Below are positions 11,898 to 26,288 of a stretch of DNA of 64,000 nt, piece by piece (positions within the stretch are counted from its first letter, which is position 1; each line of letters begins with the position of its first letter). The position numbers and the translations under genes are program-made. Below the pieces are notes generated by a model. That model was not told the DNA's origin, did no database searches, and worked only from the letters and a program-made list of their open reading frames with translations. The stretch comes from Rhodohalobacter sp. SW132 (GTDB taxonomy: Bacteria; Bacteroidota; Rhodothermia; Balneolales; Balneolaceae), in NCBI RefSeq assembly GCF_003390325.1, contig NZ_QUOK01000001.1, positions 682,001-746,000 on the forward strand, given 5' to 3'.

Positions 11898-12288
11898 ATA
11901 TAAAGAATAGACATCTCCTATAAGCCGAATTCTGTATACCGATATTTCGGGATGGCAGCCATTTATCTGGCCCTGACATCACTGGCAGGATCGTAGCGTT
12001 CCACCCGATTGTATTGTGACGAACGGCACACAATCTGCGTGAACTTGCACCCCGTGAGGTTTGCCATGCGCCCGGCATCACTGCAGGGCCGGTGAGCTCT
12101 TACCTCACCTTTTCACCTTTACCCACGCCTGCGGCACGGGAAGTCTGTTTTCTGTGGCACTGGCTGTCTTTCCGGTCTTGAAACCGGAACCCCTTCCTGT
12201 TAGGAAGCACGGTGTTCGTTGGTGTTCGGACTTTCCTCCTTCCGATTGTATCGAAAAGCGGCTGCCCGGAGATGTCTGTTCTTTATAT
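11898..12288 (-). ncRNA. rnpB: RNase P RNA (type A)
   Basis: Catalytic RNA that matures the 5' ends of tRNAs. Conserved elements are clear on the minus strand. The 5' region has GAGGAAAGTCCGAACACC (complement around 12220-12240), and the 3' region has ACAGAATTCGGCTTAT (complement of 11921-11936). The ends pair as P1: AGACATCTCC (12277-12268) with GGAGATGTCT (11918-11909). After one C/A mismatch, ten more pairs follow (12288-12279 with 11907-11898), giving a 21-position terminal helix. Boundaries given here include that extended helix; the mature RNA may start and end inside it. No protein gene overlaps; ORFs across this stretch are chance. Confidence 0.95.
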
Positions 12289-19841: not shown

Positions 19842-20633
19842 TTAATCATCTCTCCTGTCCTTGTTCTTCTTTATTCCGAAAGATTCCAGGAACTCCATTG
19901 GGAATGGAATAAACGTAAAGGTAGAATTCTCCTCACTGATTTCGTTCATCGTTTGCAGGTAGCGAAGCTGCAGTGCGGTTGGCGTTTTTGCGATCATCTC
20001 ACCAGCCTCAACAAGCTTTGCGGCTGCTTCGAACTCACCCTGTGCGTTAATAATCTTCGCACGCCGGTCACGCTCACTCTCAGCCTGACGGGCCATCGCA
20101 CGCTTCATAGACTCGGGGAGGATTACATCACGAACTTCAACAGATACCACTTTGATTCCCCATGGGTCTGTCTGGCGATCGATGATATCCTGGATTTTCT
20201 TGCTGATTTTATCACGTTCGGCAAGAAGCTCATCAAGCTCAAACTGACCTAACACACTACGCAGAGTAGTCTGTGCAAGAAGTGACGTTGCTCCGATATA
20301 CCGCTCAACCTGAATAACGGCTTTTTCAGCGTCTACAACGCGGAAAAATGTAATCGCGTCAACATTAACGGTAACGTTGTCTTTAGTGATAACTTCCTGC
20401 TTGTCCACATTTATTGTAAGTACACGAAGATCAACCCGTTCAATTTTATCAATAAAAGGAATCAGAATAATAAGACCGGGGCCTTTTGTGGCCACAAATT
20501 TACCAAGACGGAAAACGACTCCCCGCTCATACTCGCGAAGGATTTTGAACATCTGTGGCAGAAATACCGACAGAAAGATTACAATCGTAATCAGCCAAAT
20601 AATTAAGTTTGATAGTGCACCTGGATCATCCAT
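19842..20633 (-). CDS. Slipin (stomatin-like SPFH membrane protein)
   Basis: 263 residues. One N-terminal membrane helix (about 9-28) is followed by an SPFH domain. Marks are YERGVVFRLGKFVATKGPG, IDKIERVDLRVLTINVDKQE, VTVNVDAITFFRVVDAEKA, and the helical DPWGIKVVSVEVRDVILPES. The C-terminal helix continues AMARQAESERDRRAKIINAQ. Such proteins oligomerise into membrane-ring scaffolds. The start overlaps the end of the upstream NfeD gene by eight bases, the classical STOPP/NfeD-slipin operon in which the NfeD protease can cleave the slipin partner. Confidence 0.95.
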   Translation of the reverse strand: MDDPGALSNLIIWLITIVIFLSVFLPQMFKILREYERGVVFRLGKFVATKGPGLIILIPFIDKIERVDLRVLTINVDKQEVITKDNVTVNVDAITFFRVVDAEKAVIQVERYIGATSLLAQTTLRSVLGQFELDELLAERDKISKKIQDIIDRQTDPWGIKVVSVEVRDVILPESMKRAMARQAESERDRRAKIINAQGEFEAAAKLVEAGEMIAKTPTALQLRYLQTMNEISEENSTFTFIPFPMEFLESFGIKKNKDRRDD

Positions 20634-21981
20634 TAGATAACTCCTCGTTGTTTTCGGTTTGGTTTGTTTTTGATTTTACAAATACTTTAAGCCCTTCAAA
20701 TTCAACAATAACACACTTGTCGCCTTCCTCGAGTACCTCATCACTTACTGCCCGCCAATACTCACCATTATGGAACACACGCCCTTCCATTTCAGGTGTA
20801 ATCCGGTCGGATACTTCTGCAACACGCCCTACTTCCGACTCAATTCCGGAATATAAACCTCTGAACTGAGCTTTTATGCCGGATGATACGATCCATGCAA
20901 AAAATAAAACCGTTAATAACGTAGCGGGAATTAGCCAATACCAGGACACTTGCATTTCCTCCGGAAGGTCTTGAAATAACATTAATGCACCCAAAAAGAA
21001 AGATACTGCTCCGCCGGCAATCAGCAGACCGAACGCCGGGGTGAACGCTTCAGCCACAAAAAGCAGTATGGCCAGGCCGATCAGCAGAAAACCTGCAATA
21101 TTCACCGGCATGGCAGCCACACCGTAAAGTAATAAAATTAATGCAATTGCACCCGCCATACCCGGCACAATTCCACCGGGGTTTGTAACCTCGCCTATGA
21201 TTCCGTAAATCGCAACCAGCGTGAGGATTAGCATTACTTCGGGGCGAATTAGAAAACTGAAAAAGATTTCGGCAAAATTCTGCGGAATTCTGTTTTGGGC
21301 GGCACCTTCTGTTCTAAGAGTTTCCCCTTCAACCTCCATTCCGTCGATCTCCCGCAAAAGATCTTCCAGGTTATCCGCAATCAAGTCGATCACGTTGATT
21401 TCGAGAGCCTGATCTGCTGTGATCGAGTCACCGTCACGAACTGCTGATTTTGCCCATTCCGCGTTTCTTCCCCTGCGCTCGGCAATCGTTTCAATGTAAC
21501 TCTCAGAAAAGTTGAAAATTTTCTGCTGTGATACGGTATCCATCTCACCGCCGCCCATTGCCACCGGGGAAGCTGCTCCGATATTTGTAGCCGGAGACAT
21601 CGCTGCTATGTGAGCTGCAAGCGTAATAAACGTTCCTGCACTACCGGCATTCGCTCCCTGTGGTGTCACATAAACCACAATCGGATGTGATGAACCCAAA
21701 AGCTCCTGAACAATTTTCTGAGTAGAATCAAGGAGTCCGCCCGGTGTGTCAAGTTCAATCACCAGAAGTTCATCTCCGCGTTCCTGCGATTTTCTAAGTC
21801 CTCTTTGAATATACTGTGCCGTTGTCGGCCCGATTGTACCGGAAACGGATAGGATACTGACGGTGCCGGGTGCCCGATCCGCACTCTGGCTCACTTCATC
21901 ATTATCCTGAAGTACAAAAGCGGTGCCTACCAGAAAAAGTATCGCTGATATAAGGTAGGTTTTATTGATTGATAAACTCAT
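20626..21981 (-). CDS. NfeD-type ClpP-class membrane serine protease
   Basis: 451 residues. Signal/anchor helix (about 8-25), a ClpP-fold domain with DTPGGLLDST and ANAGSAGTFI (Ser114 is the expected nucleophile), several transmembrane helices (about 240-370), and a C-terminal NfeD OB-fold (EGRVFHNGEYWRAVSDEVLE). This is the long NfeD form. Pairs with the slipin gene, with which it overlaps. Its start at 21981 is divergent from the arg leader region, leaving about 255 bases for two outward promoters. Confidence 0.94.
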   Translation of the reverse strand: MSLSINKTYLISAILFLVGTAFVLQDNDEVSQSADRAPGTVSILSVSGTIGPTTAQYIQRGLRKSQERGDELLVIELDTPGGLLDSTQKIVQELLGSSHPIVVYVTPQGANAGSAGTFITLAAHIAAMSPATNIGAASPVAMGGGEMDTVSQQKIFNFSESYIETIAERRGRNAEWAKSAVRDGDSITADQALEINVIDLIADNLEDLLREIDGMEVEGETLRTEGAAQNRIPQNFAEIFFSFLIRPEVMLILTLVAIYGIIGEVTNPGGIVPGMAGAIALILLLYGVAAMPVNIAGFLLIGLAILLFVAEAFTPAFGLLIAGGAVSFFLGALMLFQDLPEEMQVSWYWLIPATLLTVLFFAWIVSSGIKAQFRGLYSGIESEVGRVAEVSDRITPEMEGRVFHNGEYWRAVSDEVLEEGDKCVIVEFEGLKVFVKSKTNQTENNEELSNG

Positions 21982-22196: not shown

Positions 22197-22204
22197 TAAA
22201 TTTG
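22197..22204 (+). promoter_or_regulatory. Possible -7 element for the arg leader transcript
   Basis: TAAATTTG fits the TAnnTTTG -7 consensus known for Bacteroidota primary sigma factor. It would place the transcript start near 22211, about 26 bases before the leader-peptide ATG. No good -33 TTTG was found at the expected distance, and an alternative TTGACT at 22150-22155 exists, so this is weak. Confidence 0.3.
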
Positions 22205-22236
22205 GAATTTAAAATCAATAGTCAGATCATTAGAGT

Positions 22237-22302
22237 ATGAATTTTGAAAGACACAGCACACTAATTTTATCTCTCCGCCGTCGCCGCCGCTCAGGCGTGT
22301 GA
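22237..22302 (+). CDS. Arginine leader peptide (putative attenuator of the arg operon)
   Basis: A 21-codon ORF, too short for ordinary gene callers: M-N-F-E-R-H-S-T-L-I-L-S-L, then five consecutive Arg codons (CGC CGT CGC CGC CGC, 22276-22290), then S-G-V and TGA. With the AGA at codon 5, six of 21 codons are Arg. It lies 200 bp upstream of argF with a strong terminator between, and the only other upstream gene is divergent. That arrangement is what ribosome-mediated attenuation uses: scarcity of charged arginyl-tRNA would stall the ribosome in the Arg run. The ORF, codons and hairpins are seen directly; translation and regulation are inference. Confidence 0.78.
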   Translation: MNFERHSTLILSLRRRRRSGV

Positions 22303-22342
22303 AAAAGCTGTGTATACCAACCCACTTTCACAAAAACGCCTG
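22292..22342 (+). promoter_or_regulatory. Putative antiterminator of the arg leader
   Basis: The segment 22292-22304 (CAGGCGTGTGAAA), which starts two bases after the Arg codons and covers the leader stop, can pair with 22326-22342. GTGAAA pairs with TTTCAC, T with A, and CAGGCG with CGCCTG, leaving four As bulged: 13 base pairs. The 3' arm is also part of the 5' arm of the terminator, so the two hairpins exclude each other. A ribosome stalled at the first Arg codons would leave the 5' arm free; one resting at the stop would cover it. Confidence 0.7.
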
Positions 22343-22374
22343 CTTAATTTAAGATTAAGCAGGCGTTTTTTTTT
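22332..22374 (+). terminator. Strong intrinsic terminator (attenuator) ahead of argF
   Basis: A perfect 17-base-pair stem (22332-22348 with 22354-22370; inner part ACGCCTGCTTAAT) around a five-base loop, closed by nine Ts (22366-22374). It lies 66 bases before the argF ATG. No plus-strand gene other than the leader peptide lies upstream of it. Confidence 0.93.
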
Positions 22375-22440: not shown

Positions 22441-23430
22441 ATGTCTAATTTTCTAACTATCTCAGATTATGAGCCGGATGAAATCCAGAACATTCTCGAC
22501 CTGAGCAGTGAGTTGCAAACTGCAGCCGAACCCGTTCTGGCCGGTAAAAATATCGCCTTTGTATTCGAGAAACCCTCCCTGCGAACCAAAGTGGGAACAG
22601 AAGCCGCGATTAATCATCTCGGGGGAAATGTCATCCATATCGATGCCGACATTCTCCTGAGCAGTGGCAAGGCTATTCCATTCACCAGCCGGGAGTCGCT
22701 CAAAGACGCCATGAAAAATGTTTCCCTCTGGTGTGATGCCGTTTTTGCAAGAGTCTATTCACATCAAACGCTCAAAAATATGGCAGGATACAGCTCCATT
22801 CCTATTATCAACGCCTTGTGTGATAAGCACCACCCGATGCAGGCACTGGCCGACCTTCATACACTGCAGCAGCAGTTTGGGAAGGATAAAAAACTGACCC
22901 TTGCATTTGTTGGAGACGCAAATAACGTTGCATTTTCACTCACTGAACTGCTCTTGAAATTCGGTCATACCGTCAATTTTTCCGGCCCTGAACAGTACAG
23001 CTGGACAGATGACAAACTGAGTTACTTTGCCTTGCTTGCGGTTCAGTATGGCGGTGAATTCAATACAGTAACCGAGCCCTCTAAGGCGGTAGAAAACTCC
23101 GATGCCATCTACACAGATACCTTTATCTCGATGGGGGAAGAGCACCTGTATGAAGAGAAAATCAAACATTTTGAACCTTACCAGGTGAATGAAGAGCTTT
23201 TTTCAAAAGCTGGAGAGCACACCGGTTTCATGCATTGTCTGCCGGCACACCGGGGTGTTGAAGTAACCGACGCCGTGATTGACCACCCGAACTCCTGGGT
23301 CTACAAACAGGCTGAAAACCGGATGATCGTGTCGAAAGGAGTTTTCGCCACCCTGCTCGATGGTGAAGGAAAAGCAACCAAAAAGCCTTCGGTGCCGCAT
23401 CTGGATAAAGAATCGGTTAACGGAACCTGA
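22441..23430 (+). CDS. argF: Ornithine carbamoyltransferase
   Basis: 329 residues; makes citrulline from ornithine and carbamoyl phosphate. Carbamoyl-phosphate motif region is FEKPSLRTK (residues 42-50), with Lys in place of the usual final Arg of SxRTR. Further marks are the HPMQALADLHTL stretch (HPxQ), FVGDANNVAFSL, the ornithine-loop ISMGEEHLYEE, and HCLPAHRGVEVTDAVID with the catalytic Cys. The HCLPA and SMG motifs favour true ornithine rather than N-acetyl- or N-succinylornithine carbamoyltransferase, which many Bacteroidota use. First structural gene after the leader and attenuator; argG follows after 109 bp. Confidence 0.9.
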   Translation: MSNFLTISDYEPDEIQNILDLSSELQTAAEPVLAGKNIAFVFEKPSLRTKVGTEAAINHLGGNVIHIDADILLSSGKAIPFTSRESLKDAMKNVSLWCDAVFARVYSHQTLKNMAGYSSIPIINALCDKHHPMQALADLHTLQQQFGKDKKLTLAFVGDANNVAFSLTELLLKFGHTVNFSGPEQYSWTDDKLSYFALLAVQYGGEFNTVTEPSKAVENSDAIYTDTFISMGEEHLYEEKIKHFEPYQVNEELFSKAGEHTGFMHCLPAHRGVEVTDAVIDHPNSWVYKQAENRMIVSKGVFATLLDGEGKATKKPSVPHLDKESVNGT

Positions 23431-23539: not shown

Positions 23540-24823
23540 ATGAAAAATCAAACCACCTATAAAAAAGTTGCATCACACGAAGCCGAAAAAGGATCATTTA
23601 ACACCTGTCTTCTTCTTTACTCCGGCGGCCTCGACACCAGTATGATGCTGAAATGGATTCAGGAGGAGTACGATTGTGATGTAATTGCCCTCACCATAAA
23701 TATCGGCCAGACCGCGGACGATCTGGATGCCATTAAAAAGAAAGCCATTGACCTCGGGGCAAAAGACGCGATTGTTTATGATGCCAAAGATGAGTTTGCC
23801 GAATTATGTACGGAAGCCGTAAAAGCCAACGCCGACTACCAGGGCGGATATGCTCTCGGATGCCCGCTCGGCCGTGTGATGATTTCAAAACTTGCCGTTC
23901 AGTTTGCCGCCGAATTTGGGTGTGAAGTAATTGCCCATGGATGCACGGGGAAAGGAAACGACCAGGTTCGATTCGAAAGTTATATCACAACGCTGAATCC
24001 CGAACTGAAAATCATCGCGCCGGTACGGGAATGGAGCATGGGGCGGGATGAACAGATCGCTTACGCCATAAAAAACGGAATTCCTGTTCAGCAGACACAA
24101 ACAAGTCCATATTCATATGATGAAAATATGTGGGCCAACACCGGCGAAGGCGGGGAGATTGAAAACCCGGAGCTGATTCCGCCGCTTGAAAATATCCTGA
24201 AATGGGCCAATACCCCCCAGCAGGCACCAGATGAAGCGGAAACTGTGAAAATTGGGTTTGAAAAAGGGGAGCCGGTATCTCTTGATGGAGTGGAGTATGA
24301 CAAAAAAGAGATCATTCTTCTATTAAATGAAATCGGTGGAAAGCACGCCGTTGGTGTATTTCACCTGATTGAGGACCGGATTGTAGGGCTTAAGGTCAGA
24401 GGCGTATATGAAAATCCGGCAGCTACCATTCTGATTCAGGCTCATAAAAACCTGGAACAGCTCGTGTCCACCCGGGAAGAGAATGAACTGAAAGGGTTTA
24501 TGGACCAAAAATGGGCTTATCTGATCTATGGAGCGAAATATTACGAGCCAGTGGTGGATAATATCCGGGCATTTATCAACGAGCAGAACAAAAAGGTAAC
24601 CGGAGAGGTAACTCTTAAACTCTATAAAGGGAATTGTGATGTGGTTGCGCTCAAATCACCTTACTCACTTTTCGATGAAAACCTTGCTACATTTAATAAA
24701 TCAGCCGCTTTCAACCAGAATGCATCTGCCGGATTTATTGAACTCTGGAACCTGCCGCAGAAAACAGCATATCAGCTGAAACAAACGGTTGAGAAAAGCG
24801 AAGCAGGCAGTTTGCCATCATGA
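23540..24823 (+). CDS. argG: Argininosuccinate synthase
   Basis: 427 residues; joins citrulline and aspartate using ATP. The ATP pyrophosphatase P-loop SGGLDTS is at residues 28-34. Other marks are ALTINIGQ, YALGCPLGRVMISK, AHGCTGKGNDQVRFE, APVREWSMGRDEQI, SPYSYDENMWANTGEGGEIE and EDRIVGLKVRGVYENPAA. All are standard for the enzyme. Middle gene of argF-argG-argH. The 180 bp to argH hold a long dyad repeat. Confidence 0.97.
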   Translation: MKNQTTYKKVASHEAEKGSFNTCLLLYSGGLDTSMMLKWIQEEYDCDVIALTINIGQTADDLDAIKKKAIDLGAKDAIVYDAKDEFAELCTEAVKANADYQGGYALGCPLGRVMISKLAVQFAAEFGCEVIAHGCTGKGNDQVRFESYITTLNPELKIIAPVREWSMGRDEQIAYAIKNGIPVQQTQTSPYSYDENMWANTGEGGEIENPELIPPLENILKWANTPQQAPDEAETVKIGFEKGEPVSLDGVEYDKKEIILLLNEIGGKHAVGVFHLIEDRIVGLKVRGVYENPAATILIQAHKNLEQLVSTREENELKGFMDQKWAYLIYGAKYYEPVVDNIRAFINEQNKKVTGEVTLKLYKGNCDVVALKSPYSLFDENLATFNKSAAFNQNASAGFIELWNLPQKTAYQLKQTVEKSEAGSLPS

Positions 24824-25004: not shown

Positions 25005-26288
25005 ATGTCCAAACTCTGGCAAAAGAGCTCTACCGATACCGAATCCGAAATCGCAAAAAAGGTTGAGGCGTTTACCGTAGGCAACGATTATCGCCTTGAC
25101 CAGGCCCTTGTACCGTTCGACTTGAAAGCTTCTGCTGTTCACGCACGGGCACTGCATAAAGCGGGAGTTCTCTCTGATGATGAGACGAAAAAACTGACTG
25201 AAACGCTCTCTGAAATAGAACGGGTTTGGAAAAAGGGTGAGTTCAATATTTCTGTGCAGGATGAGGATATGCATACAGCAATTGAGAACTATCTGACGGA
25301 GAAGCTGGGTGACCTCGGCAAAAAAATTCATACCGGGCGATCGCGGAACGACCAGGTGCTCACGGCTATCCGGCTTTTTGAAAACGATGCCCTCCAACGG
25401 ATTTTACCGGAGCTTAATGCACTTTCCGACCAGCTTGTAGAGTTTGGAAAAACGCATAAGCATATCCCAATGCCGGGATTTACACACACACGAAAAGCGA
25501 TGCTCAGCAGTGTTGCCTTGTGGGCCGGAGGATTTGCGGAATTATTAAGAATGCAGCATCATGCATCGTCAGGAGTTGAAGCACTTATTGGCAGATCTCC
25601 GCTCGGCACAGCTGCCGGTTTTGGCACCAGTATTGATATCGACAGGGATGCTGAAGCTGCGGAACTATGTTTTTCTCAGCCGATGATCTGCTCCACTTCA
25701 GCACAACTGAGCCGCGGATGGGTGGAACTTCAGTTCGTGCAGTACCTCTCCGGCATCTCCGCTGTCTTGAACCGGCTCGCATCAGATATCATACAATACA
25801 CCGGTGAAACGACTCCCTATTTTTCACTGGACGATGTTGTTTGCACGGGTTCATCCATCATGCCGCAGAAAAAAAATCCTGATCTTGCGGAACTCATTCG
25901 CGGCAGGCACTCCCTGTTTATGGGTTACGCTGCTACGCTGCAATCGGCAACCACCAATCTAACCAGCGGCTATCACAGAGATCTTCAGCTCACAAAGGAA
26001 CCGGTTTTAAAAGCTGTCACTGATATCGAGGCGTGTATAGAAGCTGCGCAAATTCTCATTAGTTCTTTGAATGTTAATGAAAAAGAGATTACGGAGGCGT
26101 GTACAGTTGAACTGTTTGCTGCAGAAGAAGCGTACAAGCTTGTAAAAGAGAAAAATATCAGTTTCCGGGAAGCGTACAGAATTGTCGCGGAAAATCCTGA
26201 AAATGCCGAAGCCAGCGATCCGGGGCAAAAACTGACCGAATCAACCCATCTCGGATCTACAGGCAACCCAGGACTGGAGAGGGTTTAA
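25005..26288 (+). CDS. argH: Argininosuccinate lyase
   Basis: 427 residues; splits argininosuccinate to arginine and fumarate. Motifs are DEDMHTAIENYLTEKLG, KIHTGRSRNDQVLTAIRL, PGFTHTRKAM, the superfamily signature GSSIMPQKKNP (around residue 285), and TSGYHRDLQLTKEP. All catalytic regions are present. Last gene of the arginine operon; no terminator is obvious after it and the next gene, susC, is 220 bp away. Confidence 0.97.
   Translation: MSKLWQKSSTDTESEIAKKVEAFTVGNDYRLDQALVPFDLKASAVHARALHKAGVLSDDETKKLTETLSEIERVWKKGEFNISVQDEDMHTAIENYLTEKLGDLGKKIHTGRSRNDQVLTAIRLFENDALQRILPELNALSDQLVEFGKTHKHIPMPGFTHTRKAMLSSVALWAGGFAELLRMQHHASSGVEALIGRSPLGTAAGFGTSIDIDRDAEAAELCFSQPMICSTSAQLSRGWVELQFVQYLSGISAVLNRLASDIIQYTGETTPYFSLDDVVCTGSSIMPQKKNPDLAELIRGRHSLFMGYAATLQSATTNLTSGYHRDLQLTKEPVLKAVTDIEACIEAAQILISSLNVNEKEITEACTVELFAAEEAYKLVKEKNISFREAYRIVAENPENAEASDPGQKLTESTHLGSTGNPGLERV

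Follow-up and report, generated by a model that had tools for sequence, protein, structure and literature searches.

An arginine leader peptide and competing hairpins ahead of argFGH in Balneolales: a probable ribosome-mediated transcription attenuator

In model bacteria the arg genes are mostly under the control of the repressor ArgR, and arginine biosynthesis is a textbook case of repressor control, leader-peptide attenuators being the textbook arrangement for Trp, His, Leu, Ile/Val, Thr and Phe. What, then, is a short open reading frame (ORF) with a run of arginine codons, followed by competing hairpins, doing in front of the arginine operon of Rhodohalobacter sp. SW132, a bacterium of the order Balneolales? 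The window analysed here – the whole stretch of 64,000 nucleotides (contig NZ_QUOK01000001.1, positions 682,001 to 746,000) within which coordinates are given below unless another locus is named – was the subject of an earlier note that interpreted this element as a ribosome-mediated attenuator. That interpretation is supported by conservation, covariation, modelled geometry and the absence of ArgR: the leader is very probably a transcription attenuator of the trp/his type, which would sense charged tRNA-Arg and control argFGH.

The genes downstream of the leader do belong to arginine synthesis, as had been proposed. On the forward strand, argF (ornithine carbamoyltransferase, 22441-23430), argG (argininosuccinate synthase, 23540-24823) and argH (argininosuccinate lyase, 25005-26288) each match an NCBIfam model above cut-off (TIGR00658, TIGR00032 and TIGR00838, respectively). 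The gene upstream of the leader (20626-21981) lies on the reverse strand, again as described before, and because it is transcribed away, the leader terminator has no other client and can serve only the argF leader. Elsewhere in the window, on the reverse strand, lies a bacterial class A RNase P RNA (11905-12277; Rfam RF00010, 253.6 bits).

The leader ORF (22237-22302, forward strand, ATG to TGA) has 21 codons and encodes MNFERHSTLILSLRRRRRSGV; its five consecutive Arg codons – CGC CGT CGC CGC CGC (22276-22290), the presumed sensing codons – lie, on direct reading, exactly where they had been placed. Around and after them, four regions of the same strand can be recognised. Region 1 consists of an outer arm, ACACAGC (22251-22257), identified by folding and pairing counts, whose partner is region 2', GCTGTGT (22307-22313), and of an inner arm formed by the 3' part of the Arg run itself (22285-22288), whose partner is 22294-22297. 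Region 2 (CAGGCGTGTGAAA, 22292-22304) is the 5' arm of the antiterminator and includes the leader stop codon; as the earlier note had seen, this 13-base arm can pair with region 3 (22326-22342), the contacts being made with TTTCAC (22326-22331) and ACGCCTG (22336-22342) across a 4-nt AAAA bulge. The intrinsic terminator, region 3:4 (22332-22374), has a stem of 18 bp (22332-22349 with 22353-22370, one G-U pair included), a loop of 3 nt (22350-22352) and a run of nine Ts (22366-22374). Its position and T run stand as first reported, but the arm it shares with the antiterminator, previously called a 3' arm, forms the 5' side of the terminator stem. Among the T-run hairpins scored in the 64-kb window, this terminator is the strongest, and the folding energy of the whole 138-nt leader is -46.5 kcal/mol, which lies at z = -6.8 relative to dinucleotide shuffles. 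The 1:2 protector hairpin – 22285-22288 with 22294-22297, plus the outer helix – was absent from the earlier description, and it completes the four-region design of the trp and his leaders.

Failure to find the Arg run or the hairpins conserved in relatives had been named as a refutation; the comparison gave the opposite result. An argF orthologue is present in 37 of the 129 Balneolales genomes searched (the relatives include Balneolaceae metagenome-assembled genomes, or MAGs, and Rhodohalobacter sulfatireducens), the rest of the class adding none, and 33 of these 37 loci have a complete upstream region and so form the assessable set. The Arg leader and the terminator are kept in all 33; the culturable R. 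sulfatireducens is among the carriers (loci L180 and L050). Three to five consecutive Arg codons are found in 32; in the remaining leader, L053 (MKFNSNYITTALSNRRSLFRV), the run has eroded to RR plus a later Arg (RR..R), with arms and terminator kept. On two truncated contigs the terminator is still visible, and the leader belonging to one of them was found on another contig. An Arg-run ORF followed by a terminator thus characterises 32 of 33 argF upstream regions, against 1 of 3300 dinucleotide-shuffled ones, and the pair occurs in none of 16 outgroup argF genes, which come from other parts of the phylum and show 38-41% identity. These leaders are phylogenetically related; at less than 72% identity, eight independent ones are left. 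Before argB or hisG of the relatives, no convincing leader was found.

Within the leader ORF, conservation acts on the amino acid rather than on the RNA, since the Arg residues persist across codon switches: one group has CGC CGT CGC CGC and another CGG CGG CGG CGG. The frame from the start codon to the Arg run contains no stop in any of the 33 leaders, against 48 and 18 stops in the other two frames. Apart from the Arg run, the conserved residues are those dictated by region 2.

These observations bear on the strongest of the rival explanations, namely that the leader encodes an arrest peptide, so that nascent poly-Arg – or the peptide together with free arginine or ornithine – stalls the ribosome, and not a lack of charged tRNA-Arg. 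Poly-Arg is basic, many relatives have RRRRP, and leaders linked to arginine or ornithine are known, an example being orf34/speF of Salmonella (PMC6386406). Yet beyond the Arg run conservation is poor, save for residues that region 2 imposes, and the run itself holds three to five Arg codons and is preceded by 11 to 26 codons; the conserved peptide N-terminal to the stall site that marks the SpeFL/TnaC type was not found among the argF leaders. Moreover, arrest by high arginine would turn biosynthesis on when it is unneeded. We therefore regard an arrest peptide as improbable.

The competing helices were examined by covariation in the 22 main-family leaders, the named structures being counted on the cleaner alignment (A2). 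The cells of the antiterminator are paired in 85.6% of cases, against 33-55% with the partner slid; its covariation exceeds that of all 500 of 500 shuffles, and that of the terminator is stronger still. Among the eight most different leaders, the antiterminator arms pair at -18.2 kcal/mol with their own partners and at -13.0 kcal/mol when swapped, swapped arms being as good as own ones in 1 of 20000 permutations and, without the common GGGC/GCCC core, in 0 of 20000. For the outer helix of the protector, 73 of 20000 permutations were as good across families in the same eight leaders, and within the main family its covariation showed no excess over shuffles. On these respective results, helices 2:3 and 3:4 are well supported by sequence comparison and helix 1:2 moderately so. 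RNAalifold, run on the mixed alignment A1, found the terminator as the sole structure, since it cannot predict two competing structures at once and a few rows of A1 are misaligned.

The spacing of these elements is equally regular: counted from the opening base of the first Arg codon, the region 2 core begins to pair after 15-20 nt, mostly 17, in all 33 leaders. The consequences were modelled by a sweep – assuming a footprint and equilibrium folding of the free RNA – in which a ribosome is moved codon by codon and the capacity of the free RNA to tie up the 5' arm of the terminator is measured. Over the 33 leaders, an A site at Arg codon 1 gives a median gain of -10.7 kcal/mol; the preceding codon gives -8.6 and the following one -8.9, and from Arg codon 4 onward the gain is about zero. 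At positions further upstream it amounts to about -2 to -4 kcal/mol, a weak gain that arises because the protector holds region 2. In every leader, the sweep thus makes the antiterminator available only around Arg codons 1-2, and changing the footprint by 3 nt either way shifts the peak by no more than one codon. With no ribosome at all, region 1 sequesters region 2 and the terminator forms in the folds of all 33 leaders. As controls, three Escherichia coli leaders were run through the same script, and each peaked where its regulatory codons lie: trpL peaks at Trp10-Trp11 (plus Arg12), thrL along its Thr/Ile run and hisL at His9-His14. The logic borrowed from trp and his in the earlier note – a ribosome stalled at the first Arg codons frees the arm, one at the stop covers it – is therefore what the modelling of 33 leaders fits.

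Could the element be a constitutive terminator preceded by a small peptide with a function of its own and without arginine regulation? Trans-acting leader peptides do exist, such as peTrpL of Sinorhizobium meliloti (PMC7298713). This reading, which we consider very improbable, would leave unexplained a covarying antiterminator that shares an arm with the terminator, its constant spacing from the Arg run and why the arrangement is confined to arginine operons. It is just as improbable that a DNA-binding arginine repressor, or a different RNA element (a T-box or riboswitch), controls the site: ArgR control is usual for arg genes in model bacteria, but searches with TIGR01529 and PF02863, whose positive controls – Bacteroides among them – matched, found ArgR neither in the window's genome nor in any of 127 Balneolales genomes, and no Rfam family reaches its gathering score at the leader site, where the best sub-threshold matches are terminator-like. 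The order seems to have lost the usual arginine repressor.

For a ribosome-mediated attenuator, the following course of events may be proposed. As RNA polymerase proceeds through the leader, a ribosome would follow, translating the 21-codon ORF of a transcript that is probably leaderless or nearly so. When arginine is sufficient, the ribosome would pass the Arg codons and reach the stop inside region 2; with region 2 covered, region 3 would pair with region 4 and transcription would end at 22366-22374. When Arg-tRNA is short, the ribosome would halt at Arg codon 1 or 2, masking region 1 and leaving region 2, whose first paired base lies about 16-17 nt downstream, free for region 3; with 2:3 paired, the terminator could not form and argFGH would be transcribed. 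If no ribosome loads, region 1 would hold region 2 and the terminator would form. The anatomy of the leader, its conservation, covariation and geometry, and the lack of ArgR come from sequence and comparison; translation of the ORF, the stalling, the position of the transcript start and the direction of the response are what we infer.

The start of the transcript is suggested by its surroundings. A TTG at 22202-22204 (forward strand), 35 nt before the leader ATG, lies in a putative -33/-35 promoter element (TTTGGAA); a TTG starting at -37 to -35 of the leader start is found in 28 of the 33 leaders, against a mean of 4 and a maximum of 10 in shuffles. An xAnnTT box is likewise present in most relatives, at -13 to -11 relative to the leader start, the corresponding putative -7/-10 box of the window's species (GATCATTA, 22225-22232, forward strand) being weak. 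The sigma-A box of Flavobacterium, TAnnTTTG, occupies positions -12 to -5 relative to the start (PMC9723704); applied here, that spacing would put the start of the leader transcript at the ATG or about 1 nt before it. Shine-Dalgarno-like sequences are nearly absent before the 33 leader ORFs. By analogy, the argF leader transcript is probably leaderless or nearly so, and a similar case is the ilvBNC attenuator of Corynebacterium glutamicum: its transcript begins 1 nt away from the start codon of the leader, and it has no ribosome binding site and three competing hairpins, although it serves branched-chain amino acids in an actinobacterium (PMC11857589).

By every feature computed or modelled, the argFGH leader belongs to the trp/his class of ribosome-mediated attenuators. 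There is a short ORF in which the amino acid that the operon makes has several codons, an intrinsic terminator between this ORF and the first gene, an antiterminator that shares an arm with the terminator and is kept by covariation, a 1:2 protector with which the untranslated leader would terminate (as in the folds of 33 of 33 leaders), and – by modelling – a stall position that frees region 2 and a stop position that covers it. Among the closest systems is E. coli trpL, with its four regions, stall codons so placed that region 2 is freed only by a ribosome on them, terminator sharing region 3 and the same sweep profile; the argF leader differs from it in having Arg and not Trp codons, in preceding argFGH and not trp genes, in its phylum, and in its putative leaderless start without a Shine-Dalgarno site. 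The hisL leader of E. coli and Salmonella likewise has a run of cognate codons in a short ORF, then competing hairpins, but for another amino acid, in another organism and with another sequence.

Among systems that involve arginine, Salmonella orf34-speF also senses it through consecutive Arg codons in a leader ORF, but it precedes a polyamine gene and works through Rho, RNase G and translation, with no intrinsic terminator/antiterminator pair (PMC6386406). At carA of Pseudomonas aeruginosa, a leader peptide stands before an arginine-linked gene and attenuation has been proposed; there, however, the genes are carAB, pyrimidine control is reported as possibly by attenuation and arginine control as separate, and the system is unrelated to argFGH (PMC4997734). 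The leader peptide rbfL of Staphylococcus aureus senses arginine limitation too, but it blocks translation of a biofilm regulator and does not act on transcription termination (PMC13009471). For a flavobacterium, hints that leader peptides attenuate amino-acid operons have been mentioned in a general way (PMC9723704). No earlier description of a leader-peptide terminator for arginine biosynthesis was found in the open full-text literature, subscription papers falling mostly outside that scope, and neither the terminator survey of Naville and Gautheret nor an actinobacterial survey names an arginine attenuator. What makes the argFGH attenuator notable is that a repressor classically governs its pathway and that this repressor is lacking here.

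Is argFGH alone in this respect within the order? In genomes without this argF, weak covariance-model matches led to leaders before argG and trpE; most of these matches were rejected as plain terminators. In families f2, f3 and f5, and in one f4 genus, argG is the first gene of an operon that includes a carbamoyltransferase of the N-acetylornithine type, and before argG of such operons lie leaders, for example MISHNPYHLRTSIRRRFRRRITAGTCEDCV and MINQTTNIFRIENRRRRIRRRLPVGICEDCV, each with a terminator (loci L244, L245, L246, L248, L249, L251, L253, L254 and L274, and the weaker L252). Nine of ten are Arg-rich (RRRxRRR or RRRR), the tenth having RRVR. Leaders with CEDCV at their end contain GAAGATT in these codons, and this can pair with AATCTTC of the terminator; the antiterminator logic thus recurs. 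The sweep over the argG leaders has a wider, thrL-like profile, and in most of them, L254 being the exception, it drops to near zero at the stop. Balneolaceae with another type of argG have no Arg leader within the 8 kb examined.

In two genomes, a WWW leader ORF of the MIFTNAHINNTWWWSIR type precedes trpE, with a terminator 8 nt before the gene (L220, 296-425; L222, 293-423); both read as Trp attenuators. Since WWW leaders precede trpE in these two genomes, leader-peptide attenuation is probably in wider use in Balneolales. We lean, with some reserve, towards the broader view that in this order such attenuation replaced ArgR as the main arginine-specific control and arose at least twice in different designs: a compact, probably leaderless four-region leader at argFGH, and at argG of the non-orthologous acetylornithine-type operon an RRRxRRR leader with an antiterminator of the GAAGATT:AATCTTC type.

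A complete and strongly conserved argFGH attenuator where ArgR is undetectable suggests that the arginine pathway can run on tRNA charging alone. The 33 leaders and the two designs offer an unusually clean comparative set on attenuator evolution, the argFGH leader is a ready-made candidate arginine sensor, and its probable leaderless start raises the question of what coordinates ribosome loading with transcription where no Shine-Dalgarno site is present.

Homologues of argF that are 54-58% identical to the Balneolales gene occur in MAGs of Candidatus Peregrinibacteria, Uhrbacteria and Gracilibacteria (L191, L193, L194, L195 and L196), probably by horizontal transfer; three of them have argF directly 3' of argG, and an Arg leader looked for beside argF was not found. 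In one Balneolales genome (G085), where argF and argG were not found, an orphan, decaying Arg leader with its terminator (L094, 1501-1637) is a relic left after the loss of these genes. Finally, in Cytophagaceae bacterium ECT2AJA-110-C (CP030886), a leader-like ORF, MTNSYNNIVNIRRSYRRYRRS, lies upstream of argF-argG (L198, 1268-1333); the terminator there is weak, and a long helix pairs the start of the ORF with the region after its stop at -21.7 kcal/mol.
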